This document shows positions 11,461-61,000 of a stretch of DNA of 64,000 nucleotides, piece after piece. Made by a program: the position numbers and the translations under genes. Under the pieces are notes generated by a model. The model saw only the letters and a list, made by a program, of their open reading frames with translations. It ran no database searches and was not told the DNA's origin. The stretch is from the NCBI RefSeq assembly GCF_037975245.1, contig NC_092563.1, forward strand, positions 30,095,960 through 30,159,959. Reading direction: 5' to 3'. Source of the DNA: Apostichopus japonicus. Its lineage: Eukaryota; Echinodermata; Holothuroidea; Aspidochirotida; Stichopodidae. Position 1 is the first letter of the stretch, and every line of letters starts with the position of its first letter.

Positions 11461-14400
11461 GTGAGTATACGTTTTTTCATCTGCTACATTTAGGTTCAAT
11501 AGATATTATATGCCTACAGCATTTCACCTTCACTTTGTTTCATGCAGTGAACATGTTTGAATATTGCATGTGTTTCAGTGTTATAAATGCTGATGAAGAG
11601 TGATTGGAAAGATTCAAATTTTATTTTTTTTGATATGGGTTGTATAAAGTATTATTGTACTACTTATTTTTCCTTTAAATAGATGTTAGCTAGCACTAAA
11701 ACTTACATGCTTTTGACATATTGATTGTGTGTGCATTTATGTATCATTACATTTTGCAGATATTTTGTGCAAATACTTTGATCGAAAGGAGACATTTGAT
11801 ACTCTTCCAACTGACTGCAAACAAAGACTTTATGGTCAAACTTTACTATGGATTGTGAAAGGCTCAAAGTTTGCTCTCTTCAAAGAAGGTCTAACACTAC
11901 TGAGATTACTTCAAGCAGCCCATTCCAATCTGTGCCGTGAAAAAGACTGGGAGAAACTGGAGCTTGGAATTAAATTAAAGGTATGGTATAGAATATATGG
12001 TAATTTTGCGTTTTCCTTAAATTCACATACTGTGTTTTATGAGTAGCTGCACTGATAGACACTGTAGTCGCTGTGCTTGTTGTCAAATTTTAACCACTTT
12101 TTCAATCTCAAATTTAGTATATATATAAAGACTTTACAAAAACAGCCAAAATTTAGTGAAACTAAGCAATATCAAATTTGTATTTTGAGACACTGTCATG
12201 GATTATTTCACCCATTTAGCAGAATTATATGTCAGTTAACTTTATACATGGATGGTCAAACCATCAATGAAATCACATTGCTAAAGGATACAAAGTTAAC
12301 ATCCGAGCAAAATCATTGAGATTGTCATCACCACTAGCCTAAGTTAAGAGAACATTAATGGATAAGTATCGTGAATTTACCGTATACTTTACAGTGTTAA
12401 CCTTTGTAAGAAAACACTGGTCTTGGTTTTTAAACAAAACTCTCATTTCGGTAGACATTGTATTGTACATATTGTAATAGACTGTTGGTCATTCTGTACA
12501 AGGACAAAAGCTTGGCCCGGGAAATAGAATGCTCTGCTGTTTATGACGGACAATCTTGACATCCCTACATATCAATACTGAAGGGATGGTATAACTAAAA
12601 GTTAATTCTAGGAGGTTTCACATATCCTATGATTCACAGAGTTTTAGGAACTGTGTTAAATTAGACTATAATATGCCTTTGATCTAGAAAAATTGTTCAA
12701 TGATGGCAGTTAACTTGTTGAAACGTGTTGATATTTGAATACGATGACCATTATTTGACTTTCTAGGATATCTGCAGCTTATAATACTATACAATATGGG
12801 CAAGTTACCCTACAAATGCAAAGATATGTAGCAGTGTTGTACACAGGACCTATAGTACTTTATGACAGATCAAATACAATATGGACAAATTACCCTACAA
12901 ATGGAAAGATATGTAGCAGTGTTGTACACAGGACCTATAGTACTTTATGAGAGATAAAATACAATATGGATAAATTACCCTAGAAATGCAAAGATATGTA
13001 GCAGTGTTGTACACAGGACCTATAGTACTTTATGAGAGATCAAATACAATATGGACAAATTACCCTAGAAATGGAAAGATATGTAGCAGTGTTGTTCACA
13101 GGACCTATAGTACTTTATGAGAGATCAAATACAATATGGACAAATTACCCTACAAATGGAAAGATATGTAGCAGTGTTGTACACAGGACCTATAGTACTT
13201 TATGAGAGATAAAATACAATATGGACAAATTACCCTACAAATGCAAAGATATGTAGCAGTGTTGTACACAGGACCTATAGTACTTTATGAGAGATCAAAT
13301 ACAATATGGACAAATTACCCTAGGAATGGAAAGATATGTAGCAGTGTTGTACACAGGACCTATAGTACTTTATGAGAGATAAAATACAATATGGACAAAT
13401 TACCCTAGAAATGCAAAGATATGTAGCAGTGTTGTACACAGGACCTATAGTACTTTATGAGAGATCAAATACAATATGGACAAATTACCCTAGAAATGGA
13501 AAGATATGTAGCAGTGTTGTTCACAGGACCTATAGTACTTTATGAGAGATCAAATACAATATGGACAAATTACCCTACAAATGGAAAGATATGTAGCAGT
13601 GTTGTACACAGGACCTATAGTACTTTATGAGAGATAAAATACAATATGGACAAATTACCCTAGAAATGCAAAGATATGTAGCAGTGTTGTACACAGGACC
13701 TATAGTACTTTATGAGAGATCAAATACAATATGGACAAATTACCCTAGGAATGGAAAGATATGTAGCAGTGTTGTACACAGGACCTATAGTACTTTATGA
13801 GAGATCAAATACAATATGGACAAATTACCCTACAAATGCAAAGATATGTAGCAGTGTTGTACACAGGACCTATAGTACTTTATGAGAGATAAAATACAAT
13901 ATGGACAAATTACCCTAGAAATGGAAAGATATACAGCAGTGTTGTACACAGGACCTATAGTACTTTATGAGAGATCAAATACAATATGGACAAATTACCC
14001 TACAAATGCAAGATATGTTGTAGTGTTGTACACAGGACCTATAGTACTTTATGAGAGATAAAATACAATATGGGCAAATTACCCTAGAAATGCAAAGATA
14101 TGTAGCAGTGTTGTACACAGGACCTATAGTACTTTATGAGAGATCAAATACAATATGGACAAATTACCCTACAAATGCAAGATATGTAGCAGTGTTGTAC
14201 ACAGGACCTATAGAACTTTATGAGAGATCAAATACAATATGGACAAATTACCCTACAAATTCAAAGATATGTAGCAGTGTTGTACACAGGACCTATAGTA
14301 CTTTATGAGAGATAAAATACAATATGGGCAAATTACCCTACAAATGCAAGATATGTAGCAGTGTTGTACACAGGACCTATAGTACTTTATGAGAGATCAA

Positions 14401-17400
14401 ATACAATATGGACAAATTACCCTACAAATGCAAAGATATGTAGCAGTGTTGTACACAGGACCTATAGTACTTTATGAGAGATAAAATACAATATGGACAA
14501 ATTACCCTACAAATTTAAAGATATGTAGCAGTGTTGTACACAGGACCTATAGTACTTTATGAGAGATAAAAGACTTCAAAACCTGCTACGTAAAATGCAC
14601 TAAAGTATTCCCTGATTCTGGTAAATAATGACACACATATGGTAGATATAACCAAATGTAATTAGATGTGATATTATAGAACTGTCCTGAAGCTATCACC
14701 ATCCTTTTGTTTTTCTTTGTAACCTTTGCTGGATCTCACAACCAATACCAGTGTATACTTTTTATATGTATTTGTTCATAGATACTCTATTATATTGTCA
14801 TGTCCAAAGTCAAACTCCAGTGTTCAAAATCTGTCTTCAATTGTTTTATTTCATTAAGTAAAGACAATTCAATCTCATACTTTGTTTACCTCATTAAAGG
14901 AATTGTCTGGTGGAAGATTTTGATACATTGTCCTTGTAGTTATTATTTTTCTCTTTCTAACCATGTAAAAATTGTCCCCATTCGACGTGTTCTTCTTGTA
15001 GAAATCTGGTTTTCAAATTCACCAGTTTCTCACCAAAAGTACCGTTTGTTCGAACGCTTCAATATGGTGATTGACGTAGTGCTTGCAGATAGGCAAAACA
15101 GGCGACTTGAAGTTAGCACTCCCAATTCCGCAGCAAATTAACTCACGTGTAAGCACATTGAATTGCCTCATATATATAACGTACATACTCGCGAACGTAT
15201 ATACTACGATGCTCAGTTGGTGTACTTGTATAGCGTTACACATAGTACACTCACACTCAAACCACAGTTCATTAACTGTTCTTCGAAATCGCTGAAATAA
15301 AATTCACGGATCAAATTAACAGTAAAAGGAATCTTATAAAGTATTCGTTAAACCGAAAGATTAAACTTGGCGGGATCGATGTCACCGCAGAACTGTCCGA
15401 TTGTAAACGTTATAGAGTAGCCTATACACGCGAACATTCTTCGCGCTGGAGCTGGATACCGCGATGTATAAACAACGAAGAGCCTGCTGTTAAAACTTAT
15501 CTTGTGTTACACAAAGACCACGAAACCACCGATCTACTACATATATTGCGGCTTAAGGAGTTTTTTAAATCATATCTAATTTATAAGAAATTTCACCGGA
15601 AATTATTGAAGAAATTGATCGAATCGTTGTCAGAGCAGAATATAGCACTGAGAAGCTTAGGCTTCGCAGAACTGTCCGATTGTCAAACGTTTGAGTACAG
15701 CCTACATGCGAACATTTTTCGCGTTGGAGCTGGATAGCGCGATGTATAGCCTGAACAACTCAGAGTCTGCTGTTAAAATTTACCTTGTGTTACACAAAGA
15801 CCACGGAACCACCGCTCAAGTACATGGCGGCTTAAGGAGTTTTTGAAAACATATCTAATTTTTAAGAAATTTCACCGGAAATTAAGGGAGAAATTTATCT
15901 GTATACAAACGCTGTTTTTGTTGTGATTACCGTATAGGTACTGTGCGGAGGGTGGGTTATGACGCAATCTGCTATGGCAGAGCTGACGTCACGTATTGTA
16001 CTGTTCAAATCATATTTGAAATGTCTATCCATAACGATTAAAAAATCGTTTCTCTGTCAAACGCAACATTAGCGTTCTCATACTTTGACAACATGTTTGG
16101 AAAATTATTTACTATTTTTTAAGGTAACTTCTTTGGGCCACCAGACAATCCTTTTAAATCATTATGTTTTTGTTTTTCGTTAAGATAATTCTCCAACAGA
16201 TGCTGAGCGGATGTAGTTCAAGTCAGTGTTTGGAAACTTTCCACGGTCTCTTTCCTGCAATTAATGACATACCGGTAAGTAACTAATTGTGCAATTGGCA
16301 GCATCGTGTCGGTCTGCGTTAAAGTGATACATTTGACTGTACTCTGCTTATGCAATCATTTAATTTGTCCTCTTTGAACTGTCTGCATTTTTGAACTGTC
16401 TGATCTTTTGTCTGCATTTTCCTTTAAAGGTATTGAAGACTCGCTCCAAACCGTGTGCGGCCATCTGAAAAACTTAACTTTCTGTTGCTTGCAAGTGAAG
16501 TTTTGTTCGTTTCGCTACAAATTGCAGACAGTAATGAAACGTGATACCTTGTTATCTTTAGCTGGACCTGAGATGTCCAGCGCCTATATTTATACACTGT
16601 GCTGTGGTTATTGACCGTAGCTGTATGTATTGACTGTACACTAGTGTCTAAATACCGACGGTAGCAAGCTGTGTCTGTATTTTCTGGGATCGATAGTGAT
16701 GTCTAACACTTCTGTTACACCTCATTCGAAACTAGGTCAGATTACCGGCATTAGACGTTTCTTTTTGAGCGAGTCTTCACACCCTTTAAGAGAAAGCAGA
16801 ACTAACCATCGGAATCAAATGAATTGAAAATTGCTAGTTAAATCGATGTTTTTTTTTCCTTCTTTCTCCTTTCTTTTAGCAGAGTGAAGATGAGACACAA
16901 ACTGACAGGAGCCTACCGTTTCTTCTTTGCCAGCTCATCAAACAACCATCCGAGAGGAACTCCATCAGTAAAGATTCAAACTTCCAAACCGAGGTCGGAG
17001 CAAAGCTGATTCATACAATCACGCACCGTGTGAAACATTTAATTAAAAATCTGAAGTGGAAACTCCCAACTCCAAGTTTCTCAAAGGTAAACTTATGTTT
17101 GAATCTTTCATACTTACCAAACTTCCCAAAGAGGTTCGTAATTTGTGATCAGACATAATATTATTGTTTAGTTGAAATGTTCTTGATATATCCTCTAAAT
17201 GGGTGTTTCATTATAACAGTTCCACCACTGTTTGTCTAATAGTGTCATTGAAACATGTGTGAAGAGATTTAACGGTTACCAAGTACCAGGATGAAGGTAG
17301 TATGTTGTCAGATAATGGGATACAGAATCCAGTTCTTGCCCTGGGGTTGATTATACATTACGATTCGAAACCTAGAATCATAGCCTCACGACTAAAACCG

Positions 17401-32529: not shown

Positions 32530-35500
32530 GTTTGTACGGTATATATGTATACAAGTATCATCTCGATTACTAGCCTACATACTGTGTACTGAACTAGGCT
32601 ATACCCATTCAGCTATCACAGCCTATAACTATGAAGTATTACCAGATGAGTACAAAGATGTGTTATTTGTTACCTTTCACTTCAGACTTAAGCTTCATGT
32701 TATATAAACTGCAACATTTTACTGCCAAAGGCTACTGTAATTGAAAATGGTCATCCAAGAAAGAAAGATATCAACATTTCTGTCAGACAACCAAATCTTG
32801 ATGAAAATATAGCAGTCATCCTTCGGGAGTTCGGGCTGAGCTAACAAATATGACACTTGGTGTTGTCTAATGAAGGCTATTAATATTATGAACAAAATAC
32901 ACAGGCTGTTCCACACAGGGCAGCTATAGCTTCTGTCTTATGTTGTAAGAGAAGTGTTTCGATTAACAAGCAATGTACATTGCTGTTTGGATAAACTACA
33001 AGCACAAAACCCCTATCAATGTACCCAGACCTTCACAGGGTGAAACACTCCAAACTTACGTGAAGCGTTTAAACATTAGAACCTTTAATTTTGTAAGTTG
33101 TGACTCCGTAGGCCAGGGAAGCCGTGATAAGAATCCAATTCTGCATATTGCAATGTTGCAAAGCAGAAGACTGTAATAGGGCTCGATAACGATGTGGCAA
33201 GGCGTTCGTGTTAGATGATTAACAGTAGGATATTCTTTAAGTAACTGGGACATTTTGACAAGGGTTTTGCTAGGTTTATTGAAAACACCACAAGTCATCA
33301 AATGGTATGAATTAATATACACTGAACCATTTTCTACTTGAGGTTGTATTTATCACTAATGGACAATGTTTTTGAAGAATTTTAGGAATGTCTGATCATT
33401 GGCTTTTTAAATCGCAACATTAGTGGTTCAATGGGGAATAGCTAAGTCCAAAATGATGGTTTGCATGAAACTTGGGTTCATTGCTAGAGCCGTTTATTAA
33501 TGTCATATCAACTTCTTATTCCACTCATTGCTTGTCAATGACAGGTCATAGTACCTAAAGCAACCATGTTCATACAGATCATAACACAATTTTTCTTTCT
33601 TTTAATTTGATTTATTTGTTTATTTTTCTTGTACAAAGACCTAATTCTATTGGACTGAATCTATGTCATTGTGCAACTACTGTAAGTGCATTTAAAAAGT
33701 AAATGAAAGTTGTACAGTGCAGAGATCTTGCATGGTTTGTTAGAGAAATAATGACCCAGTGCTACTACAAAACACCAGCAACATTTCACCCTGCTATGGT
33801 TTCCACATGGATGTATTCTTATCTCCAGCTTAGTAGTTCATCCATATAAGCCGTAAAGCAGACTTATATTTCACAGGTTGTAACTATTGACCTTCTCTCG
33901 CATCTTTCAGGTGAAAAAGTTGCCGTCAAGGTGATCGACAAGACTAAATTGGATGAAGTTTCCCTAGCTCATCTTTTTCAGGAAGTTAGATGCATGAAAT
34001 TGGTACAGCATCCTCATGTTGTCCGTCTCTATGAGGTCATTGACACCCAGTCCAAGCTTTACTTGATTCTGGAGCTTGGAGATGGGGGCGACATGTACGA
34101 TTATATTATGCAACATGAGAACGGTTTGGACGAGGATCTGGCTAGCACATACTTCCAACAAATAGTACAGGCCATCTCCTATTGTCACAAGATGCATGTT
34201 GTTCATAGGGACCTTAAACCAGAAAATGTCATATTTTTCAAGAAACAAGGAGTAGTGAAACTGACTGATTTTGGATTTAGTAATCTCTACAGTCCAGGAC
34301 AAAAATTAGAGACTTCATGCGGTAGTCTAGCGTACTCGGCTCCAGAGATCCTTCTGGGTGATTCCTACGATGCCCCAGCCGTTGGTAAGTTATTTACAAC
34401 ACAGTCATTGATTAATGTTTGATTTGAAAACAAGAAACTACTTGCAGTAACCTTTGCAGGAGGGTATCCGGGGCAATAAATTCAATTGACATATTAAACA
34501 TGCTGTGTGAATCACTTGAATTCACACAGAATTGTTATACAAGTGTAGCAGATTCTTGCCAACAGAATCTTAGTATTAACATCACTCCTCTCCTACCTGT
34601 CTCCTGTACATCTGCACTTTTTTCTACCTGGCTTACAATAATTGGCGATATTTTGTACTGCGACCCCAGTATCCCATCATAAAACACTATTGAAATTTGT
34701 CAAATTGCTATACAAGTTCAAATATACATAACCGTATTTTTAATACACATGAATCGTAGTATCTATAAGGGGAGCAAATTCAGAAGACTTCAAAACTGCT
34801 ACACAAAATTTGAGCACTAAACTACGGCCTGAATCTGCAAAAGCAGATGTGGTCTGCTATTATTTAGCTTGAAATGCATTAGTTCTGAGCAAAAATTTGT
34901 AATTTGCAAGGCACCCTTTCTGTTCATAATCTTGCTGGAATGTGTCCCACAACTAAACCATACTTAATGTAAATATCAGCTTCTGTTTGGACAATGTGCC
35001 ATATTTAAAGAGAAAAACAAATTAAGCCGTTGTGCACATAATGCTGTACTGTTTTGGATTGCTTGGCATGATAGGCTATAGCCAGAATCACTGTGGAACA
35101 GTGTTTCCTGTTCACACTTTCGAGTCCTTCTACTGTTGTTGTAGCTCTTGCCTTAGTTCCTTTTGTTGTCTTGCTTGTCACTCACACCCCTTGATTGTAA
35201 ACAAAGCTGATAAGACGATTTAGGCGATGAACTGTCGCAATGCTCTAGATGGCAACACTTACTACAAGCACAGTGCATTTACACTACAACAGGGGCAATG
35301 TCTAATCTTTCCCAGTGCTGATAACATTTGTTCATTCACAGTCCTTTTAGCATGAGAGTGATGTAAAGCTGACATTCAACCACTAGCAATTATGATAGTG
35401 CACTTTACAATACTTGTGAAAGCCCTACAGATCAGAGGAGGAAAACAAATATGAAAGGTCAAAGACCTTTACATGTGTAATACTTCACATGCCTTAAAAA

Positions 35501-47500: not shown

Positions 47501-50500
47501 AATATGTTAGGTACATGTCAGAGTCATTTGTGCCCTTGCGTGTGTGTAGTTTCAATAAGTGTAAAACAAACTGTAAGAATCTCATGCAACTCTTTCTTTC
47601 CATGTCACTTTTTCTTTGCAAATTATCTGTGTAGCATCATTTACTGCAAATTTTGACTGGTAGCTGAGTGCCTCTGCACCCTACTGTTTGATTGAAGCTA
47701 CAGATATGCACCTAATGTAATCTCTTCTATTCATCTGTCTGTTCTACCTAGGTCCTTTTCTAGATCTGCTTTTAAAACTAAGCAGGAATTTGACTGGTTC
47801 TTGTATGAAAGTGTAACGTTGAGTGTCAATAGACTGTAACTCCGCCGACACGATGCACTCCACTCTGATGAATGGCATTGCGACAACCTTTCTCCCTGCC
47901 TTCTAGTTTTATGGTTTAATGACTGTAACTTTGATGCTTCACGTAAAATCTGGTCGCTTAGCGATACATTGCGATGGCTCAAAACCGAGGCACTATGCTT
48001 AAGATTTCAAGAGCATTGAGATCCTAGCCCACTCGTAGCAGCAGTGGTGTACTTTCAAACTAATTGTTACATGAGGTATCATTGCAGACAGATAAACCCT
48101 CATGATGACATGTGTGGGTGCCTAGAGGTGTGAGAGCAAAGTCCTATATCGAGAATTGATGGTCTGCTTAGCATATAATTAAATGGATAAATTGGTCTTC
48201 TTAGCATAGTATTAGATGGATAAATTCACTGGGATTGTGGAAGTACTATGTGAAATACTGTTTAGTACTGCCACACAGACATATATGTACAATGTAGTAT
48301 TCAAATTGTGGTGTGGTGAGATTGGTGAGGGGATTGTGGAGACTAGGAAGCTTGTACCTAATGACCTATTTAAAGATCCCTCCCCCTCCACACCAAAGAG
48401 GAAAGTGTTCCTTTATTGCCACATGTATTGTGTTATAATGTAGTAGCAGTAACAGGCATTTAAATATTTTGTGAATATGTTAGTTCAGGTATATAACACC
48501 ACTTTCACAGCAGATAAACAGATTATTTTATACAAAACATTCTGGATAAACATTAATGTAATTGGTGTGACATCATCCTAACAAAAAACTGGAATATCAC
48601 AAATATTAATACAAGCTTACAAGTGGGACTTACTTATGGTACATTGAGAGAATAGAAGGATAGCTTGTTGACACAGAAATGGGTGGACTGGTGACAAAGT
48701 GTTCAAATGTTGCAATGTTGAGGAGAGGCAGTTAAGTAGCAATTTATTTCATTCCTCTGTTACCCTTCTGCTATACATACAAACTCTGATGTACCCTTGC
48801 ACACAACAAAGTCATACATACATTACACCAACACACACAAACAATGTTCTCTCAAATCCCATTAGCAAAGTCTTCAGATTTTATCATTGATTCAGAGATT
48901 TAATGATTTTTCTTTCCTTTTGTGTACATTGTAGTAATGCTTGGTAATATAAAGCAGGTCCATTACACAGTCAGTCCTTCAAACAACACATCTGTCTTCA
49001 GCGATAGTCATCCCTGGGAAAAAAGCTTTTGAATGGCTAACCTAGGCTAACAATGGATTATGTAATAGTCTTTGTCCTGACAGCATTAATCCCTTTTATA
49101 ACCTATTTTTAGTTGTCCACTGTGTGTCCATTGTGTGATTTGGAAGTGTCACAGCTAACAGATCATTAATATAACTGTTGCATAAAGCTAATGGGATTTT
49201 ATAAATGAAAGGTTAGTAACTGTGTGAGGGGAGAGTGAGATAAGAATACAAATAGCCTACACAATTATTGGAAGGTGGGAAAAGGATACAGGAATTAAAG
49301 GTATCCATGTACACATCCTTATAGGTATGCAGCATTATTATTTAAACAGGAAATGCAGCTGATCCTACTGTACTGAAAGAATTGTAGCATGAAGCATCAA
49401 TTACAGTATGAAAACAAGGACTTAGTCAAAGGCAGTCTATATCTTATAAAGCTAGTTAGTCAAAGGCAGATATCTTACAAAGCTAGTTAGTCAAAGGCAG
49501 ATATCTTACAAAGCTAGTTAGTCAAAGGAAGATATCTTACAAAGCTAGTTAGTCAAAGGCAGATATCTTACAAAGCTAGTTAGTCAAAGGAAGATATCTT
49601 AAAAAGCTAGTTAGTCAAAGGCAGATGTCTTACAAAGCTAGTTAGTCAAAGGCAGATATCTTAAAAAGCTAGTTAGTCAAAGGCAGATATCTTACAATGC
49701 TAGTTAGTCAAAGGCAGATATCTTACAAAGCTAGTTAGTCAAAGGAAGATATCTTACAAAGCTAGTTGGTCAAAGGCAGATATCTTACAAAGCTAGTTAA
49801 TCAAAGGCAGATATCTTACAAAGCTAGTCAGTTAAAGGCAGATATCTTTCAAAGCTAGTTCTAAGTTAAAAGCAGATATCTTACAAAGCTAGTTAGTCAA
49901 AGGCAGATATCTTACAAGCTAGTTAGTCAAAGGCAGATATCTTAAAAAGCTAGTTAGTCAAAGGAAGGTATATTACAAAGCTAGTTGGTCAAAGGCAGAT
50001 ATCTTACAAAGCTAGTTAGTCAAAGCCAGATATCTTACAAAGGTAGTTAGTCAAAGGCAGATATCTTACAGAGCTAGTTATTCAAAGGCAGATATATCTT
50101 ACAAAGCTAGCTAAGTCAAGGAAGGTATCTTACAAAGCTAGTTAGTTTAAGGCAGATATATCTTACAAAGCTAGTTAGTCAAAGCAGATATCTTACAAAG
50201 CTAGTTAGTCAAAAGCAGATATCTTACAAAGCTAGTTAGTCAATGGCAAATATCTTAAAAAGCTAGTTAGTCAAAGGAAGGTATATTACAAAGCTAGTTG
50301 GTCAAAGGCAGATATCTTACAAAGCTAGTTAGTCAAAGCCAGATATCTTACAAAGGTAGTTAGTCAAAGGCAGATATCTTACAGAGCTAGTTATTCAAAG
50401 GCAGATATATCTTACAAAGCTAGCTAAGTCAAGGAAGGTATCTTACAAAGCTAGTTAGTTTAAGGCAGATATATCTTACAAAGCTAGTTAGTCAAAGCAG

Positions 50501-53500
50501 ATATCTTACAAAGCTAGTTAGTCAAAAGCAGATATCTTACAAAGCTAGTTAGTCAATGGCAGATATCTTACAAAGCTAGTTAGTGAAAGGCAGATATCTT
50601 ACAAAGCTAGTTAGTCAAAGGCAGATATCTTACAAAGCTAGTTAGTCAAAGGCAGATATCTTACAAAGCTACAGTAGTTAGTCAAAGGCAGATATCTTAC
50701 AAAGCTAGTTAGTCAAAGGCAGATATCTTACAATGCTAGCTTAGTCAAAGGCAGATATCTTACAAAGCTAGTTAGTCAAAAGAATGGACCAGCAATTGAG
50801 GTATTATATGTGTGTTATTTATTCATGACAATTTATGTAGGGCCACCAACATTTCTGGGAGTATAGCTGATTTTGTTTTTCTTCATGAAAAAGAACCTGA
50901 AGTAAAAAAAGAAAAAGAAATGTGTTAATTATATTAAATGTTACAAAAAGAAATCAGGTCATTCTGTTTGAAATTTAGGAATTATCTAAATTGATTCATT
51001 AAGTCCTACCTCAGCTAACTTTGTTCTTAAAAAATTATTAAGAAGCAGCTTGATTATATATTATGTTTGTAATTTAAGTAATATCTTCTGCAAGGTAAAA
51101 AAAAAAAAAAACCCTTGAGCTAAATATATTGTTAGTTTCTTGCAATAATACCACAATTATAGATAATGTACTATAAGAAAAATGGTACTTATAGTTTGTA
51201 AGGAATATTAAAGTTTGGAATAACATAACTGTCATCCACAGATGAACCCAGGAGAGTCCAGTATGTAGACAGAAATACCGACAGAAGTTGTCGTTGTCAA
51301 AGGAAGTTAAGTGGGGAGAGGGGAGTAGTTAATATCTACTTTGAGTGGGAGTTGTCCCCTGATGAGACTTTTATTAGTGGATGTAAATACAATGAATGTA
51401 AATACAATACTTTGTAGGCTCCTTCTGTGGAAATTTGAATGTTGTTATTAAATGTCAGATAAATGACTATTCCACCTCACACACATATTCTCTCTGCTTT
51501 AAAATGTACCATCTTGAGTTTGGTACGTAGATTCTGGTAATTTTATCCAACCTTAATTCCCAGAACTAGAACCAAAATAAATTGGCATTTGATTCAGCAC
51601 CGACATCGATCATGGATCATATATTCACCAAACCAGAAAGTTATAATTAGAAAGAACCAGCAATTCTATCAAATTCTTAGAATTTTCCTTGCACAGACTC
51701 TTTTCAACTTTAGTATTTATCAGACCTGTGCAAAATCAAAATTTTGGAAATTTACCAAGGTTTGAAGACTTTATCTGAACAGCATTTGAGATGGATATTG
51801 AGCTAGTCTTAGTGGTCGAGTTAATGAATGACATCGTTTAATTGGATTTTTATGGCGCCTTTGATCAAAAGTTTACCTAACGTTGCAAGTCATTATAGGT
51901 GCTCTAAGTAAAGGTTACATTACAAATGGTGCACAAATCCATTGATAATTCAACATAGTGGATGTACAGTACTTTAGCAGGAAATTGTTGAGCTATTAGT
52001 ATAATATTAATAAGGCATTACATTATTCAGTGGAGAATAAGTGGGGATTTAATAAATCGATATTTACATGTTGAATGGCCAGGCAATGTAACAGTCAGTC
52101 ATGATTTGTGTTATGTGTGTACATGTACACATGTCACATGTATGTAACTAAATGTAATTGTGTTTCTCAAACATCGATCATAGAAAAACTATGATTCTCT
52201 TTAATACTTGTTAATTCATACTTAGTAAAGATTCCTAAGTCCTATTGGTCCATTCAGGTCAGCTGACCGTGGTTAATCCTGTGAGTAACGCACGGTAAAA
52301 TTACTGGGCATCACTTTAATAAATCTTTGGTTATATGTAACCAAAAATGTTCTGTTTTATGATTTTTCCCCCACACAAATGGTAGTGTATGAATATACAG
52401 GGTTAATCAATGGTCTAGTGTGCATTACTCACATGATCAATGCACTCCGGGTGTTAATGCTATCGATGGATGCACTCGGGCTCCGCCCTCGTGCATCGCT
52501 TGCATTATCCCCCGATCGTGCATTAATCCTATGAGTAACGCACGCTAGACCGTTGATTAACCCCTTATTTAACAGTATGCAGTTATCATTCTGGTGTTTA
52601 CAGTCTTATCTAGGTTGAAGCAAGATATGGTGTTTGTATTCCACATGCAGCTACAGAGAAATGTCTCATAACTACATGAAATTGTAAAAATGAACATAAA
52701 AAGGACATGTGCGAGTTTAGAGAAACTGTTAAACTTTTGATCAAAGTCAGTGGGAGGATCAGTATTGGCTTACTAAATGTCCTTTTTATAGTTTTTGTTG
52801 TATTCTATGAATACCAACTTTATTCCTATGTCACTAATTTTTCTTTGGCATGTACCCAGTTCCCCCTTCCTTGTACTTTCTACAACATGCTTGTATAAGC
52901 GGATCGTGCAGTCATGCAAAGATCTTATGTTTGGTTAGTCCACATTCCAATTATTGTATTTTTTTCCATTCCTTTTTTTGCTAGTAATGATGTCCAGGCT
53001 TTTCCGTCAAGCACCTCACTATTTAATTGGATTTGCTGTTTGACTTCTCCCCTTAGAAATGTTGAATTTTCTTTCAGCAAAATAATTTGGTTTTCAATTG
53101 AAATTAGTTTGGATAGACGGGAAGTTCTCAACCCAACCGTGAAAAAAAGGAGAAAAAAATCAATATCCTCTCATCTACTTTTGATTTGGAAAAACATGTT
53201 TTGCTTTAAGTTGGAGAAAATTTAATTTGAAGTGAAGCATGAATTTTCTTATCTTTAGTATTTCTTCTCTGAATATCCTTATGGAGTTTATGTCTGACTC
53301 TTGACTGAGGTATCTTATGTTGTGAGATCAGCATACAACTGGCATAAACCATATCCTTTGACATCATTTTGTTAGGCACCCTGTTAAAGGTACAGTACAG
53401 TAGAATGCTGAGGGGCTGCAGCATTCTGTAGCCAGGCTGCGCAGGAAAATGATCTTTTGTACTGTGTAGTTACACACTGATGTTCTGTAGAGATGATCTA

Positions 53501-56500
53501 TATTGTATGATATTGGTTCAACACATTGAGTGGATCAAACACTTGTTTGCTACATTGGTGGTAATACTTCCTCAAATTTACTTGACCACTAACTTTTGAA
53601 TTGTCTTGTTGCAATGCTAGTTATAAACACAATCTGTTTTGGTTCAGTGAGTTCTGTAGGTCTTATTTTCCCTGTCAACTAAACTGTTTTGCGTTACCAT
53701 GTTGGTACTATTTTCTATTGAAAGAATTTTGTCTAAACATTGGGACAAAACTGAAAAATGTGTGATTTGTAGATCATAACATTATATCAAGCACAAATGT
53801 AAGATTAATTATTAAATATTTCAAAATTGTCGCACCTTATTCCACATCATCGTTCCTGTATAATGAATTCTGTTAATAGAGAACAGCGAAGAAAATTTTC
53901 CCTCCCAAGAAATGTTTTTTGTGTTTGTCCATGGTGATCCTCCAGAGAGTTTTTAACCTTTTCCCTCCCTGCAAACTACATTTATTGGAGAAGAAATCAA
54001 GTGAAGAGACACTTGAGTTTATCCTTAGGGATACCAAGACTTGGAACCCTGAGCAATCGTAATGCTCATAGTACATGCCACATAGCTTGCATGAGTTTCA
54101 TAATAAGGTAAGAGCTGGCCTTAATAATAATAGTAGTAATAAGGAAGCCACTTAATGCAGTCTAATGCATTGCATAGATCTGCGTCATGTTCTTAAGAAT
54201 ATTTAGCTGTATATGCAGTACCCTGTCCTGTAATGTTAGAGATAAGGTGTAAGAGACATACTGCTTAATGAATGCTTCTCTGTGAACTTCTTAAATTATA
54301 CAGTTTACAGTACTATCTATTTGTATCTTTCCCAGCTCCCTCAGAAATAGTAAAGTATGTGGCACTAGATAAGGAAGCCACATACTGCTTGATGCATCTG
54401 TGTAACTTCTTACAAACAATTCTGAAATCTTTTAATATGTACCTGTCCTTCCTCGGAGTACTGTACTTATAATAGTGAAGCCACATACTGCCTAAAACAT
54501 CAGTACAAACTTCTTCAAAATATTCATGTATTTATAGCTGTTCCACTAATCTACCCCCCCCCCCCTCCAATAATTATGAAACTAGGTTGGACCATGCAGT
54601 ATCTTTACATAACACCTCTCTTCTAATAATTCCTGTTATTTTTTATACTGTTGGTTGTTTGTTTCTTCCGACTGAATTTTGTTCATAAACAATATCGGAA
54701 GAATTAGAACTTTTGATGTTGTTATTTTATTTATAAGGAATTTTTGTCAATATATGGGAGTAATACAGTCAAATGACTGGTCATGTGACTGGTCAGGTGG
54801 TAAGGGATAAGAGATTGTGCAAACGGCTGTAATATTTAGTATCATGTATACATTGATAACAATCTAACAAATAATCATGGAGTTAGAGCTACAGTATTAC
54901 TCCCTCATGCAAGCAACATGTTTTTAAATTTCACATTTTCCTTTGTGTAAAAACTTGATTTCAGTTGTCAACTTTATTTGATAAATTTACATCCCCAGGA
55001 TACTAGGAAATGGCACAGCCACAGACTATGTGATACAATCTTGGAAAGTTGCCTGGTCTAAAAAAAAATTAGTTTAAGTAATAATGATTAAATAGTAATA
55101 ATAAAAAATATATATATAGAAAAAAACACATACTGTACTTTGTTGTAGAGTGCAAAGTACTTTAAGTACATGGAGACAATGTACTTTATATGGATATTAA
55201 TCTACAAATGTTAGCCTACAATATTACAATGTACTGTGTGGTACGTGTGATAGCTGTAATGTTTATTGAAGTATCTTGCACACATTACTAGTTTAGTGTG
55301 CAGTTAAATGTTACTGATAAGGCTCTGTGGAGTCTCACAATTAAACACACCACTTCAACCGCCAGTACTAACTTATAATTTGCTAACAAAATAACCAATT
55401 AATTTGTTTTCTTGCTGCATTTTCATTCATCAGTATGTAAGTTGATTGCTTCAAGTTTCTTGAAGTGGGCAGGGGTGGCTTGGGTGAGGGCAGGGCAGGG
55501 GAGGAGAGGGGAGGGTGATGTTGAAGATGATTGCATGAACTTACTTTTCTCCTCTCATACGTGTCCCCAACACAGATTCCTGTCTACCTAAACTTTATGG
55601 TTGGAAAAATGAGGAATTTTATGGAATTATAGAGTTAGGAATACACAACCACGGCAAGAAGAAATAAAACACTACCTATTCAAAAAGCTCTGTAACAGTA
55701 GTCCTCCCCCAGCCCCTCCTTACCTTCCCACCCCTAAATAATAGAATTGTCTTTGAATTGATTTTGACAAAACACAGCAGTGCTGCATTTCTAAATTGTG
55801 AGAAATCATCATTAATATATGGTATTAAAAGGTAAATTTTATGTTTTCCGATGTCTGGAGATGGGGTACATGCTTATACTCATAGTTTCTATTGCTTTGC
55901 TCCTCAATTAATGTAAGAACAACTGATGAATGTCCAGTATTAAACAGTTGTTTTTGAATTTTTCAGATGTCTGGAGTTTGGGTGTGCTCTTGTTCATGTT
56001 GGTTTGCGGGGAACCTCCGTTTAACGAAACCAACGACAGCGAAACCTTGACAATGATTATGGATTGCAAGTACCACTTGCCAGAACATCTATCAGATGAA
56101 TGTAAAAGGTAAGAATCATTTACAGTCCTCATTGACTTCTCCCCCCACCCACCCCTCCCCCACCACCCCTTGCAAGTACCACATGCCAGAACATCTATCA
56201 GATGAATGCAAAAGGTAAGAATCATTAACAGTCCTCATTGACTTCTCCCCCCACCCACCCCTCCCCCACCACCCCTTGCAAGTACCACATGCCAGAACAT
56301 CTATCAGATGAATGTAAAAGGTAAGAATCATTAACAGTCCTCATTGACTTCTCCCCCCACCCACCCCTCCCCCCATTGCAAGTACCACTTGCCAGAACAT
56401 CTATCAGATGAATGCAAAAGGTAAGAATCATTAACAGTCCTCATTGACTTCTCCCCCCACCCACCCCTCCCCCACCACCCCTTGCAAGTACCACATGCCA

Positions 56501-58023
56501 GAACATCTATCAGATGAATGTAAAAGGTAAAAATCATTTACAGTCCTCATTGACTTCTCCCCCCATCCACCCCTCCCCCACCACCCCCTTGCAAGTACCA
56601 CATGCCAGAACATCTATCAGATGAATGTAAAAGGTAAGAATCATTAACAGTCCTCATTGACTTCTCCCCCCACCCACCCCTCCCCCACCACCCCTTGCAA
56701 GTACCACATGCCAGAACATCTATCAGATGAATGTAAAAGGTAAGAATCATTTACAGTCCTCATTGACTTCTCCCCCCACCCACCCCTCCCCCACCACCCC
56801 CTTGCAAGTACCACATGCCAGAACATCTATCAGATGAATGCAAAAGGTAAGAATCATTAACAGTCCTCATTGACTTCTCCCCCCACCCACCCCTCCCCCA
56901 CCACCCCTTGCAAGTACCACATGCCAGAACATCTATCAGATGAATGTAAAAGGTAAGAATCATTTACAGCCCTTAGTGACTTCTCCCCTCCCCACCCCCC
57001 CCCATTGCAAGTACCACATGCCGGAACATCCATTAGATGAATGTTCTGTAAAAGGTAAGAATCATTTAAAGCCCTCATTGACTTCTGCCCTCCCTCCCCC
57101 CGCCTCCCCCCCCATTGCAAGAACCACATGCCGGAACATCCATTAGATGAATGTTCTGTAAAAGGTAAGAATCAATTAAAGCCCTCATTGACTTCTGCCC
57201 TCTCTCCCCCACCCCCCCCCCCCCATTGCAAGTACCATGTGCCGGACCATCTATTAGATGAATGTAATTTAGGTAAGTATCAATTAAAGCCCTCATTGAC
57301 TTCTCCCCTCCCTCCCCCCCCCCCCCATTGCAAGTACCACATGCCAGAACATCTATCAGATGAATGTAAAAGGTAAGAATCATTTAAAGCCCTCAGTGAC
57401 TTCTCCCCTCCCTCCCCTGGCACCCCTCCTCCAAGGCTACCCCCACCCCAGGCTTACCTTTCTGTCATACTGTTGGTCCCTTGTACTATTCATCTCTGAC
57501 AACTTTGCTTTTAGTGCTTTTTTAGGGTTTTACTCCACTATTGTCTCTTGTTTTTGATTCCTACACATTCCGCACAAAGGCAAATGAACGATTGCTTCTC
57601 ATTATACTGTAGGTCTTGAACGATTGTACAAACATGGATGTATCGTTATGTAGCTAGAAGATCAATTATAATGAAACATTGTTTCTCCACCTGTTTGGTC
57701 TCTTTGAAGCATTTAAAATGTCTTTTAGATTGCCTATTGTAGCCTAAGCCTAATTCTGTACAGTAATCCCTGTTTGTTATCAGTAAAACCTCACGCTTCC
57801 CCTTTTTCACTCTCAGTCTGATAGCAAGAATGCTGGTGAAGGAACCGGCCCGGCGGCTCACCCTAAGTGATATCGAGAATGACCCATGGCTTTCACAGGC
57901 TCAAGATGACCACACATACGTAGAGCCATTCATCACACGAGAAGAAATCGGACCTCAACTCCACGATAATATCATAGACACGATGGTGAAGGGGGACGTC
58001 GCGGACAGACAGAAAATTGTGGA
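32406..58023 (+). CDS. SNRK: SNRK, SNF-related (AMPK-family) serine/threonine kinase, first four coding exons
   Basis: A kinase of the AMPK-related group activated by LKB1, with roles in metabolism and cell growth. Join: 32406-32529, 33911-34384, 55967-56108, 57817 to ~58023 (about 315 codons); all junctions are in phase. The sequence is nearly identical to human SNRK through the kinase domain: glycine loop LGRGHFAIV (25-33), catalytic Lys48 in [12 protein letters not shown] (140-147), DFG (161-163), activation-loop Thr176 in [13 protein letters not shown] (the LKB1 site), [15 protein letters not shown] and the [13 protein letters not shown] end. The last exon enters the UBA-like region ([10 protein letters not shown]). 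Human SNRK is 765 aa; the C-terminal ~60% lies beyond the window or in exons I could not see. No broken residue, so an active kinase is expected. Intron 3 carries the exon-end array described separately. Confidence 0.95.
32530..33910 (+). other. SNRK intron 1
   Basis: 1381 bp, A+T-rich, no repeat or nested gene recognised. Confidence 0.7.
33911..34384 (+). CDS. SNRK: SNRK exon 2: kinase core
   Basis: 474 nt, acceptor ATCTTTCAG, donor GTAAGT. It encodes VAVK, the [20 protein letters not shown] helix region, [25 protein letters not shown] and the activation loop to DAPAV. This is about half of the kinase domain in one exon. Confidence 0.96.
34385..39300 (+). other. SNRK intron 2, part 1
   Basis: No exon seen. 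A dispersed CTACCTGTCTCC repeat copy lies at 34569-34690 and a satellite-related fragment at 34740-34860. Degenerate tRNA-like SINE heads lie at 36460-36535 (GTTGGTAGAGTGCAAGG...) and 37520-37595 (B-box GGGTTCGAGCCCT). A short perfect palindrome of TATA/ACTGTA type lies near 36940-36965, and a 12-base G run near 37437. Confidence 0.5.
36460..36535 (+). repeat. Degenerate tRNA-derived SINE head
   Basis: A-box-like TAGCTATGTTGGTAGAGTGC, then AAGGTTTGTAACCCTGAGGT and a degenerate B-box CTGGCTCAATTTTC. Probable pol III-derived repeat relic. Confidence 0.45.
39305..39910. repeat. 86-bp tandem repeat in dimer order, about 7 copies
   Basis: Unit contains TGTAAGCTTCAATRAGGATG, CACAGTGATGCATATAT and AGGGATRAAAATGTCTGATACA. 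Two variants alternate: A (CAATGAGGATGCTATAGTACTAC) and B (CAATAAGGATGCTATTAGTAC), order A-B-A-B-A-B-A. The minus-strand ORFs here are by-products. Confidence 0.85.
39911..49430 (+). other. SNRK intron 2, part 2
   Basis: No exon seen. Dispersed-repeat copies (CTTACCTGTCTCC ... ACTGTGCGCCC) lie at 40610-40760, 45090-45250, 45430-45560 and part at 47300-47390. Many C runs (40690, 44890, 46783). The rest is A+T-rich unique intron; short ORFs show no recognisable family. Confidence 0.5.
40610..45560. repeat. Dispersed repeat family 'TTACCTGTCTCC ... TGTGCGCCC' (three copies here)
   Basis: Copies at 40610-40760, 45090-45250 and 45430-45560; further copies at 34569-34690 and inverted at 60865-60990. 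Shared order: CTCACTTACCTGTYTCC, a CTA-rich middle, TGGTAACnnTnnn, CACTGTGCGCCC and TTCTACCAYCC. About 150 bp, non-coding, class unknown (SINE or MITE). Confidence 0.6.
49430..50785. repeat. 31-bp tandem array, about 43 copies, in SNRK intron 2
   Basis: Unit AGCTAGTTAGTCAAAGGCAG + ATATCTTACAA. A ~313-bp block of ten diverged units at about 49940-50160 onward is repeated at about 50255-50470 (marked by GGAAGGTATATTAC and CAGATATATCTTAC), a second-level duplication. No spacers, so not CRISPR. Confidence 0.93.
50786..52254 (+). other. SNRK intron 2, part 3
   Basis: Unique A+T-rich intron sequence; nothing recognised. Confidence 0.5.
52395..52563. mobile_element. Palindromic MITE / foldback element, about 165 bp
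   Basis: GGGTTAATCAATGGTCTAGT at the left and ACTAGACC...GATTAACCCC-type inverse at the right (52525-52563), with GCATTACTCA / TGAGTAACGC and a central hairpin GATGCACTCGGGC-TCC-GCCCTCGTGCATC. Nearly the whole element folds back. A partial copy of its right arm lies at 52268-52300 (TTAATCCTGTGAGTAACGCA). Confidence 0.75.
52564..55966 (+). other. SNRK intron 2, part 4
   Basis: No exon seen until 55967. Weak ~95-bp repeats at 54140-54520 share 'AGGAAGCCACATACTGC' wording (three to four copies). C run near 54556; G-rich stretch at 55465-55520. Confidence 0.5.
55967..56108 (+). CDS. SNRK: SNRK exon 3: kinase C-lobe
   Basis: 142 nt, acceptor TTTTTCAG, donor GTAAGA. It encodes [20 protein letters not shown], then [20 protein letters not shown] and SDECK. 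Its last ~40 bases plus donor are the founder of the 12-copy tandem array that follows. Confidence 0.95.
56069..57425 (+). repeat. Tandem array of SNRK exon-3 end plus 5' splice site, 12 extra copies
   Basis: The founder is the last 40 nt of exon 3 (TGCAAGTACCACNTGCCAGA ... GATGAATGYAAAAG) with GTAAGA and the following ~65 nt ending in a C-rich pyrimidine tract. After the real donor (56109), copies end at donors starting 56215, 56321, 56421, 56527, 56634, 56740, 56847, 56953, 57055, 57165, 57273 and 57373 (period 100-110). All 12 keep GT; 11 keep GTAAG. The three at 57055, 57165 and 57273 are the most diverged. Minus-strand ORFs across the array are by-products. Confidence 0.95.
57426..57816 (+). 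other. SNRK intron 3, right part
   Basis: C-rich continuation, then unique sequence to the exon 4 acceptor. No repeat copy of the exon end after 57373. Confidence 0.6.
57817..58023 (+). CDS. SNRK: SNRK exon 4: end of kinase domain and start of UBA region
   Basis: Acceptor CACTCTCAG. It encodes [26 protein letters not shown] and, further on, [10 protein letters not shown]. The donor is either GTACGT at 58024 (gives E at the junction as in human) or GTAAAT at 58028; the first fits the family better. The next exon is not found in the remaining 6 kb. Confidence 0.88.
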
Positions 58024-61000
58024 GTACGTAAATGTTTTAAAGATTCTCTGAAAAATTGCATGGTTGCTAGATGAAAAAGATGGCTTGATTGATAGTAATG
58101 AAAATCTGGAGTTGGAAATGATTGACCAAGAAAAGAGAGACTTTAGCTATAGTTTGTTCTTCTCTTAGGTAGGTACAGTAGGCTAGATGAGCTACAAATG
58201 AGAGATGCAATGCGAGATTGCATTTGTATCAAGTTGGCTCTGACAGTTACAGCACTCACATGTGTACCTATGTACATATATCAAAAACCACAAGGGGCAG
58301 TTAATTATTCCTGTGTATAAATATAAATCAATGAATGAGATAATATTATGTTGTACAGGACTTATAGAGCCAATGTTAGTAATCAACAACCTCTAAATGG
58401 ATAGGGCAGTCTTGGGTCAACTTTATTCTGGACTGATGAAAAAAAGGAACATATTCTTTTATATTGTAGCTCAACATTGTGTTTGTGATTTCTACGACCT
58501 TTTTGTGAAATATTGATAAAGTCAAGATTGTCATGGTTATTAAACATATCTAGGTCAATATAGGGTGATATCATATCTAGAGGTGTTATGTCATATTTGC
58601 ACAACAGCAACCAAATGTTTTGGTTTGCAGTTCTTGTTTTGACCTTGGATTGGTTATTAGGTAAGCTTCCAAGTTAGCAAAAGGAGATTCTGGAATAGGT
58701 GCTGAAAGGTTACTAGGTTATTAGGCTAGATAAACGGGAAGGTGCAATAGTATGGATGAAACAAGTAAGTACAGTAGCATCACTTGTAAATATAAAAATA
58801 AAAAAAGGGGGTCTTGGAATATTTTCCTTTTTGAATCTTAAGTTTGAACACAGCTTAGCTTGAACACAGTACATGACTGACTAGAAAGGTCTGCTGGCAA
58901 TTACGATTTTGTGTAGAAAATGGTACAACATGCGGTGATTAACTCTTGTGCAAGGTGTAGTGACTTATCCGTATGGACATTACCCGAAGGGTCATTGTTT
59001 GATAGCACCATTTAAGACGATATACATGCCAGAGGAACTGCAATGGTCTGTATGTCATTGTTAAATTGTGTAAATAGGTCAACGGTCCTCAAACTGGGTC
59101 GCAACCCAACTGTGTTCAGGTCGCAAAGCATATTTGATGGGTTGCGTGATCATTCCAGAATCCACAGGAAAAAAAGGTTAACTTATATTTGTATTAATAA
59201 TAAAAAGTTGTATAGAGTAGCCCTCTGTGTTATGGAAACAGAGCCAACCATTGCACCAGGAGCCATATGCCTGAGCCATTGTAATGATACATGTCCCCAA
59301 AGGAAAGGTAGTAGGGGGGCGGGATGGCAATAATAAATGTCACCAAATGGAAGTTAGTAGGGGGGATGAACATCAATGGGGTCACTGCCCTAAATTAAAA
59401 ATACATTGCAAGGTTTAAAAGGTCTAGATCATTAACACTCTGTTAGCATCTCTTGTGCACAGTGTAATTACCACATTCTAAAAGCACTTGTTATTGTTCA
59501 GAAAAAGTCATCCCTGATTTAAGCAAACTAAATAGAAACTGGCAACAATAGTTTGCACCAGTTTCCCTTTTGGCACCAAAAGTATCAAATTCGGATGTTA
59601 CCTCGGAAGTGGCAACCAGGAATTGAGTACAAATTTCACCATGATGTTCAGAGTATATTTCTAGTCACCAGGATAATTTACCTGAGTATACTAGTCAGAA
59701 GTTGTTCATAACTAGTGAACAGAAATCTCAAAATATTATCGTCATAAAGAAGTTGTTAGTCATTCCATAGAAGATAACAATTAGCAACCAGACTATATAG
59801 ACTAAACTCTGCCTGTGAATTCTCCGACCGAAATTCTTCTAGATATCGTGAACATGTTTATTGTATTCAGGCAAATCAAAGCCAGACATTTAACTGTCCA
59901 ACTTTAGAAACTTACAATTCTTGTCATTACGTCCTTGTAGTAAAAATAATCTATGACAGTGAAATTGGGAAAGTTCCCCCAATCACCAAAGTCCTTGAAT
60001 TTTTTCTTGAAAAAAAATAAGTTGGCTTTCCTAGAAGTGATTCTTGTTTTACTGTCGTTCTATACTAACGAATGTGTCCTGTCATTACCGTACGAGTGTT
60101 TTAAAGTATATAGGGTTACTAGAGCAGGAAGTAAGTGTACAGTGTATCCTTTACATAGGAAGTCTATAAGCCATCATAGTACATACACCTCTGTGGTGAG
60201 CTTGAGCATTTGTAAACCATCCATACCTGAGCAGGTTTACCTGTTTGCTTTTAACCATGCGTACATTATGTAGGTTGTTTACCAGCAATTACATCTATCT
60301 GTGTTTATTGAGCAGGGCAACTGACAGTATCAAGAGTCACGTTCGTCCCCCCCCTATTAGTTTTGTATTGTATTGTATTTCACGATGGTTCAAAAAAATC
60401 ATAGAGCCGAAATGTGTTTCTTTCATAATACATTTATTCATATCAAATTCAGCGACTATAACAATTGTGTCTATGTAACAAACAGATGAATTGCAATACC
60501 ATGTTTAATTTGGGAGAAGCCACAAATTTTTTGTGTGGTTTAAATGGAAGGCTGATCTGAAAAACTTGTTAATAAACATAGGGGAACCTATTACATATTT
60601 CTACACTTGTTGACACTACTGGAATGCGGTACACCATTACGAACTTGGCACAAGTTGGCAGTGTAAAAAATATTTTAGTTACTCTTAAACAACAAGGATA
60701 TTTCAAGCTAATAAGGAACAGTCACAACAATTTAAACAACTTTGGTAAACACCGAAATAGGTCCATGAGGTGCCGAAAACAAGCAGAATCGGCAAAACAT
60801 GAAGTATGAAAACAAATTTAGTCTGCGAGAAAACAAGTCAATACACTTTGAGACGGTAGAATGAGCAGGAGGGATGTGGACTGTAAGTAACCCATCATAG
60901 AGGGCATACAGTACTAAAATGGTACCATTTCACTCTAAGTATGGTAGATCCAGAGTGCTAAGGCTGTGGGGAGACAGGTAATCTTGTCACTCAAATATTT

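Follow-up and report, generated by a model that had tools for sequence, protein, structure and literature searches.

A tandem array of exon ends and 5' splice sites in an SNRK intron of Apostichopus japonicus is probably a mirage-type minisatellite

Introduction

In the SNRK kinase gene of the sea cucumber Apostichopus japonicus, the end of an exon and its 5' splice site are repeated in tandem at the start of the following intron. Does this array regulate the gene, does it supply new exons or introns, or is it a minisatellite that happens to carry splice signals? Structures of a similar kind, called mirages, had been described gene by gene in amphioxus. The passages of PMC3087553 cited here define them as tandem duplications across an exon-intron boundary, report regular splicing and propose that new introns can stem from them. 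PGBD5 was later added as a mirage gene, and the cited part of that work reports no aberrant mRNA from the mirages of TnC and Adh (PMC3902484). Here we analyse a window of 64,000 nucleotides (the whole stretch of contig NC_092563.1 that holds the array) and further loci of the same genome.

Results

The SNRK gene around the array

Three kinase exons, when joined, match SNRK (5yks) with 432 bits and the next kinase with 236 bits, which bears out the identity proposed in a preliminary description of this DNA. The features that frame the array are as follows (a slash marks an exon boundary).

33850..34384, plus strand: upstream SNRK kinase exon (Pfam Pkinase, 3.7e-47; the joined protein matches SNRK 5yks); the left edge is approximate, being the start of the open frame
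55967..56108, plus strand: real SNRK exon of 142 nt, with the end AAAAG/GTAAGAATC; its final 45 nt make up unit 0 of the array
56109..56110, plus strand: real 5' splice site (GT), joining in frame to the exon at 57817
57817..58051, plus strand: next SNRK exon, acceptor CTCTCAG/TCTGATAGC, joined frame K-S-L-I-A-R; the right edge is the end of the open frame

The upstream exon has the donor GTAAGT at 34385, and the acceptor of the 142-nt exon is TTTTTCAG, ending at 55966. This exon had been called nearly invariant, a description that does not suit the duplicated part: in the alignment to 5yks the exon is identical at 37 of 47 positions and the repeated end at just 8 of 13.

Upstream of the real exon, at 55844-55867, 24 bases resemble the exon start (TTTTCCGATGTCTGGAG) at 21 of 24 positions, without the AG. 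None of 500 shuffles reaches the score of this resemblance, and the stretch may be the remnant of a former copy of that start. Far from the array, at 2030-2626 on the minus strand, there is a possible exon of a NAGPA-like phosphodiester glycosidase (Pfam 3.3e-4, which misses the curated cut-off).

Anatomy of the array

56064..57408, plus strand: exon-end minisatellite of 13 units (unit 0, the real exon end and donor, and 12 extra units), from TRF, the unit table and the alignment
56215..57374, plus strand: twelve extra donors, at 56215, 56321, 56421, 56527, 56634, 56740, 56847, 56953, 57055, 57165, 57273 and 57373
56141..57326, minus strand: G-quadruplex motifs whose loops are single nucleotides, present in 10 of 13 units

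TRF reports the array at 56064-57408 with a period of 106, 12.8 copies, 90% matches and a score of 1974. Anchored on TTGCAAG, the 13 units start at 56064, 56170, 56276, 56376, 56482, 56589, 56695, 56802, 56908, 57005, 57115, 57226 and 57328, a spacing of 97-111 bp. Thus the exon end and donor have indeed been amplified 12 times as a tandem unit of about 106 bp, as first described, and the start is to be moved from 56069 to 56064. The authentic exon is retained at one edge of the cluster, where unit 0 forms the end of the SNRK exon and reads in frame into the next one. All extra copies lie on the intron side of this exon, and the intron runs about 400 bp past the 3' edge of the array. When the genome (671,581,487 bases in 35 contigs) was searched with the SNRK unit, at least 13 matches were returned, and all matches found were within the array.

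Each extra unit consists of an exon-like end of 45 nt, a donor together with some 32 nt of ordinary intron, and a C-rich tract. The exon-like end has this length in most units and measures 50, 50 and 47 nt in units 9, 10 and 11. The GT is kept in 12/12 extra copies (13/13 units) and GTAAG in 11/12, the exception being GTAAA at 56527, so that the strong donor ascribed to nearly all copies is there. A C-rich tract with TTGCAAG likewise precedes each of the 12 extra copies, in agreement with the GCAAG noted before. The proposed micro-exon of 38 nt per unit holds for 9/12, and fails for units 9 and 10 (43 nt) and unit 11 (40 nt).

On the minus strand the C-rich tracts read as G-quadruplex motifs. 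Four C runs spaced by single bases are present as separate runs in seven units, while units 8, 10 and 11 show the pattern only if a long run is split; on the G-rich strand the loops of the main unit are A, T and T. Ten of the 12 single-nucleotide-loop motifs in the window fall inside the array. In yeast, the unstable minisatellites are those with short-loop G-quadruplexes, according to the cited passages of PMC5491262, and by analogy the C-rich tract probably favours instability of the SNRK array.

Sequence variation within the array

In the alignment, units 0-7 are nearly identical and the 3' units divergent, a pattern that shows the cluster evolving in concert. Relative to unit 0, units 9-11 have changes at 4-6 of 45 exonic bases, carry indels of 2-5 nt and are 85-88% identical to the query unit. 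The copies had been called homogenised, which applies to units 0-7 and does not apply to units 9-11. Since these changes include frame-shifting indels, the extra copies are without coding constraint. The TTG (Leu) of the real exon otherwise occurs only in unit 3; in its place ATG is found in ten of the 12 extra units and GTG in unit 11.

In its intronic part, unit 0 matches unit 6 save one extra C, whereas units 8-12 differ from unit 0 at 2-3 of the 22 bases ahead of the C tract. Exchange therefore seems to involve the flank of the real exon as well. The unequal exchange that had been suggested is supported by two sequence dialects, a super-period of 213 bp and variants that alternate. With gaps set aside, mean pairwise mismatch rises from the donor (0.031) through the exonic part (0.055) and the intron (0.100) to the C tract (0.190). 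Counted as variable columns, the donor's ten intronic bases have 2/10, the exonic part 9/45 (indels not counted) and the 22 intronic bases that follow 6/22. These proportions give no clear constraint on the donors, and selection on donors, judged within the SNRK array alone, was set aside.

Exon-end arrays found without a motif

For a base rate, kinase, myosin and p450 exons of the same genome were surveyed with TRF at 68 of 76 loci; the eight exclusions are L001-L006 and L019, which are the window itself, and L008, which repeats L024. Arrays were counted at a period of at least 15 and at least 2.5 copies, and exon edges are the edges of the Pfam match. The loci hold 44 arrays over 5.4% of 248 kb. 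The window holds 15 over 9.9%, and so the genome is rich in minisatellites; two large ones in the window are at 12789-14571 (85 bp x 21) and 49422-50780 (31 bp x 43).

Two of the surveyed arrays overlap a matched exon, both at its 3' end and both starting at the exon's donor. At L025, about 16 units of 31 bp, with the GT kept in 15/16, follow a titin-like kinase exon whose end reads CCCT/GTAAGTATAACC. At L040, a myosin exon ends AACTAG/GTATGC and is followed by 19 units of 53 bp, with GT in 19/19 and AG/GTA in 19/19. The L040 units (1729-2719 of that locus) occupy nearly the whole intron, up to CCCGCAG, the likely next acceptor. No acceptor-side array was seen in the 68 loci against two on the donor side, numbers too small to call a difference. 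The arrays at L026 and L007 lie further downstream and do not evidently include the donor, and one at L073, 52 bp past its match, was discarded as a plain pyrimidine stretch. As the units of L025 and L040 have no G runs, G-quadruplexes are ruled out as the general cause of such arrays.

In the three arrays found without reference to a motif, the seven donor bases vary less than the rest (0.011 against 0.065, 0.018 against 0.079 and 0.008 against 0.100). This difference hints at more than neutrality, although a window test is not significant (combined p 0.064). With seven arrays p is 0.078, four of the seven having been found through intact donors; L080 (no consensus) and L079 (donor lost in the consensus unit) were dropped from that test.

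Exon-end arrays found by their donors

The genome was also searched for three AGGTAAG spaced 27-57 bp apart, with the reversed motif as control. Raw matches number 2,148 against 1,477, counts that are swayed by large arrays. We therefore rely on arrays counted by hand among the first 100 matches listed for each pattern, which for AGGTAAG cover contig C1 and 2.3 Mb of C2. Among these there are 11 AGGTAAG arrays in 23.95 Mb and 22 reversed ones in 62.43 Mb (ratio 1.30, p 0.44), or 10 and 15 when judged simple repeats are left out (p 0.18). The density of AGGTAAG arrays among the matches listed is thus not significantly above that of the control.

The 5' flanks of all 11 AGGTAAG arrays were fetched, one array being in two pieces (L086 and L088). 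In six of the 11 (five without L079), an open frame backed by homology runs up to the first donor:

L077: exon-end AGGTAAG array, TIL domain 1.1e-9
L080: exon-end AGGTAAG array, USP6NL 7.4e-7, the only PDB hit; no Pfam match
L081: exon-end AGGTAAG array, MON1 4.3e-6; Pfam 0.0066, below the cut-off
L083: exon-end AGGTAAG array, aldo-keto reductase 9.5e-10
L085: exon-end AGGTAAG array, HMG-CoA synthase 1.6e-23
L079: weaker exon-end array, P-loop only, 6.5e-6, under the Pfam cut-off; no PDB stretch passes alone

The gene at L079 may be a neuron navigator. Its later units mostly have no GTAAG, and its consensus unit has lost the donor (five AGGTAGG against two AGGTAAG), which speaks against donors being kept. 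At L078 (91 codons) and L088 (112 codons) an open frame precedes the donor; neither has a Pfam match, and L088 has no PDB match either. At L082, L084 and L087 a convincing exon was not found. Together with the motif-blind survey, eight exon-end arrays with homology support are found beyond SNRK, that of L079 being weak, so the arrangement occurs in several genes of this genome.

Two of these loci deserve separate description. At L080 (677-751, from C1:12646727 onward), in the USP6NL-like gene, the first exon-end unit of 51 bp is open for 17 codons; many of the later units listed end in TATTAG, a stop in the first unit's frame, and the array reaches about C1:12650040. L082 and L083 (C1:18607050 and C1:19120150) have the same donor-bearing unit of 40 bp and are 0.5 Mb apart; the L083 array begins at the aldo-keto reductase exon, and the piece fetched for L082 has no visible exon.

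Is the share of exon ends larger than expected? Outside the array the window has 15 AGGTAAG in 62.7 kb, or about 161,000 genome-wide. The number of introns may be put at about 135,000, from a gene number of 19,828 and the figure of 7.79 given in the Augustus row of the cited table, read as exons per gene (PMC10344927). If 10-25% of these introns use AGGTAAG, real donors would make up 8-21% of the motif, a range built on rough inputs. The chance probability is then 0.0001-0.015 for six of 11 and 0.001-0.06 for five of 11; at an expected share of 24% it is 0.03 and 0.10, and at 36% it is 0.17 and 0.36. Exon ends may therefore be over-represented among AGGTAAG arrays, a result that depends on those inputs. 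By simple proportion from the listed matches, about 140-170 exon-end arrays with the same motif and spacing are expected genome-wide.

Plain random seeding would not explain such an over-representation. One further reading is that minisatellites arise or persist preferentially at exon ends, so that hundreds or more introns would start with arrays of near-perfect 5' splice sites. Their donors would be intact because the selected real exon end serves as the master copy in exchange, or else as docking sites for U1. The hint of donor conservation and the possible excess of exon ends lead us to keep this reading open as a tentative one, and the doubt about L079 made us lower its already modest odds a little. 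If it is true, the genome holds a standing supply of duplicated splice sites for new exons, introns and longer proteins.

Splice signals, coding outcome and alternative explanations

Splice sites were scored with matrices, that for donors being based on human frequencies. On this scale the real donor and ten of the 12 extra donors score 6.32, that at 57273 scores 6.36 and that at 56527 scores 2.24, and none of the other GTs in the array's intron is above 0.5. Outside the array, 10 plus-strand sites in 62.6 kb are as strong as the real donor. The AAG acceptors score 1.0-1.1 in units 1-9 and 3.1-3.4 in units 10-12; the exon's own acceptor scores 3.0 and that of the next exon 8.5. By sequence, then, the extra copies appear splice-competent.

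Splicing from any of the 12 later donors gives CKR-stop, and the predicted truncation of the kinase is therefore correct. The proposal that three 38-nt units restore the frame is not: 85 of 220 triples are a multiple of three in length, though none is open, because the second unit falls in a frame containing TGA. With an open product defined as one that reads 150 nt into the next exon without meeting a stop, one to six units with AAG acceptors yield none in 2,509 combinations, and either internal AG acceptor alone yields none in 847 and none in 465. Tandem cassette exons were accordingly rejected for any single acceptor type. When acceptors are mixed between units, an open product results from 102 of the 4,197 combinations that contain three units at most.

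These open combinations bear on the idea that the units are raw material for gain of introns or exons, recruited as one or the other in a Rogers-type model of AG/GT duplication. Such a role was proposed for the globin mirages (PMC3087553, in the passages cited), and the L040 repeats, which fill nearly the whole intron with AG/GT in 19/19 units, would suit it. Against it, one kind of acceptor gives no open SNRK product, and in seven of the eight other arrays a stop follows within 1-12 codons of reading past the donor; the eighth is L080, where the sequence covered ends 74 bases after the donor. We consider this explanation of the SNRK array unlikely.

The array could instead act as a regulatory decoy, its extra donors and 38-nt exons competing so that the intron is retained or a poison exon included, the transcripts are destroyed and the copy number sets the fraction lost. 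Decoy exons near retained introns do exist in other genes. Eleven of the 12 extra donors equal or exceed the real one in strength, three of the 12 micro-exon acceptors are on a par with the exon's own, both by the matrices above, and a stop arises from every later donor and from every one of the 38-nt-type combinations tested. However, the acceptors are AAG and nine of 12 score under the exon's own, and the presence of like arrays in genes as unrelated as HMG-CoA synthase, MON1 and myosin speaks against a switch special to SNRK. Published mirages of the same anatomy are also reported, in the cited passages, to splice normally (PMC3087553, PMC3902484). We think a decoy role improbable, and with it the proposed tuning of SNRK output by copy number.

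Tandem arrays are notorious for being misassembled. An artefact is nevertheless highly improbable here, since the units differ among themselves in two dialects, the same type of array recurs in unrelated genes, and the published assembly, if it is the one analysed here, is described, in the part cited, as made from HiFi reads with a mean of 14.7 kb at 64-fold, ten times the array's 1.3 kb (PMC10344927).

Discussion

We suggest, with a probability of about 0.8, that the SNRK array is a mirage-type minisatellite that has grown by slippage and unequal exchange and is mostly inert. A tandem duplication that by chance spanned the exon-intron boundary would have placed a second exon end and donor on the intron side, and replication slippage and unequal exchange would then have enlarged the array. 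G-quadruplexes of the C-rich tract would be a probable helper of this expansion in SNRK and dispensable for the class. Growth would be confined to the intron side because purifying selection holds unit 0. We infer that the first donor, 56109, which adjoins the complete exon, is the one used, and that the other donors would leave with the spliced-out intron. A regulatory role is most likely absent. Some points stand against an inert array: the donor bases in the motif-blind arrays are better conserved (p 0.064, not significant), three of the 12 micro-exon acceptors score as high as the exon's own, and exon ends may be in excess among AGGTAAG arrays.

The value of the SNRK array lies in the class rather than in the single case. 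The class gives a direct test of the gain of introns and exons through tandem duplication. It is also a natural experiment on how the spliceosome settles on a single 5' splice site when a dozen are nearly identical, for it is mainly position that sets the competitors apart from the real donor.

Among known systems, the decoy exons of detained introns, such as that of OGT, are intronic sequences with exon-like splice sites. Such a decoy is a single exon whereas SNRK has an array. Human internal tandem repeats are also minisatellites at exon-intron boundaries, able to alter splicing or create introns; they were sought in recent segmental duplications according to the passages cited, whereas the SNRK array is in a kinase gene outside these (PMC2812944). 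CEB1 and CEB25 share with the SNRK array tandem units and G runs with one-base loops on the G-rich strand (PMC5491262, cited passages); the SNRK array is compared here by its motifs, and the class differs in that the L025 and L040 units are not G-rich. In the cited portions of papers on earthworm metallothionein and C. elegans minisatellites, intronic minisatellites appear and nothing like exon-end arrays. No report of mirages in echinoderms or sea cucumbers was found among the open-licence PMC papers listed by the searches.

The closest likeness is to the amphioxus mirages of BflGb6/BflGb9, Adh3, TnC and PGBD5, which are, in the passages cited, minisatellite-like duplications of an exon-intron boundary (PMC3087553, PMC3902484). 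Both kinds have splice signals in many units, keep the real exon, show concerted evolution and occur in several genes. Unit sizes of 10-160 bp in the amphioxus globin and Adh3 genes include the SNRK unit of about 106 bp (same sources). They differ in that amphioxus also has acceptor-side mirages while the sea cucumber cases are donor-side only, and in that SNRK has 13 units with G-quadruplex-prone C tracts. In its sequence features, as read from the genome of one assembly, the SNRK array matches mirages and probably belongs to this already described kind, in a phylum different from that of amphioxus. With eight or nine Apostichopus japonicus genes, SNRK included, mirages would be present in more than one deuterostome phylum.
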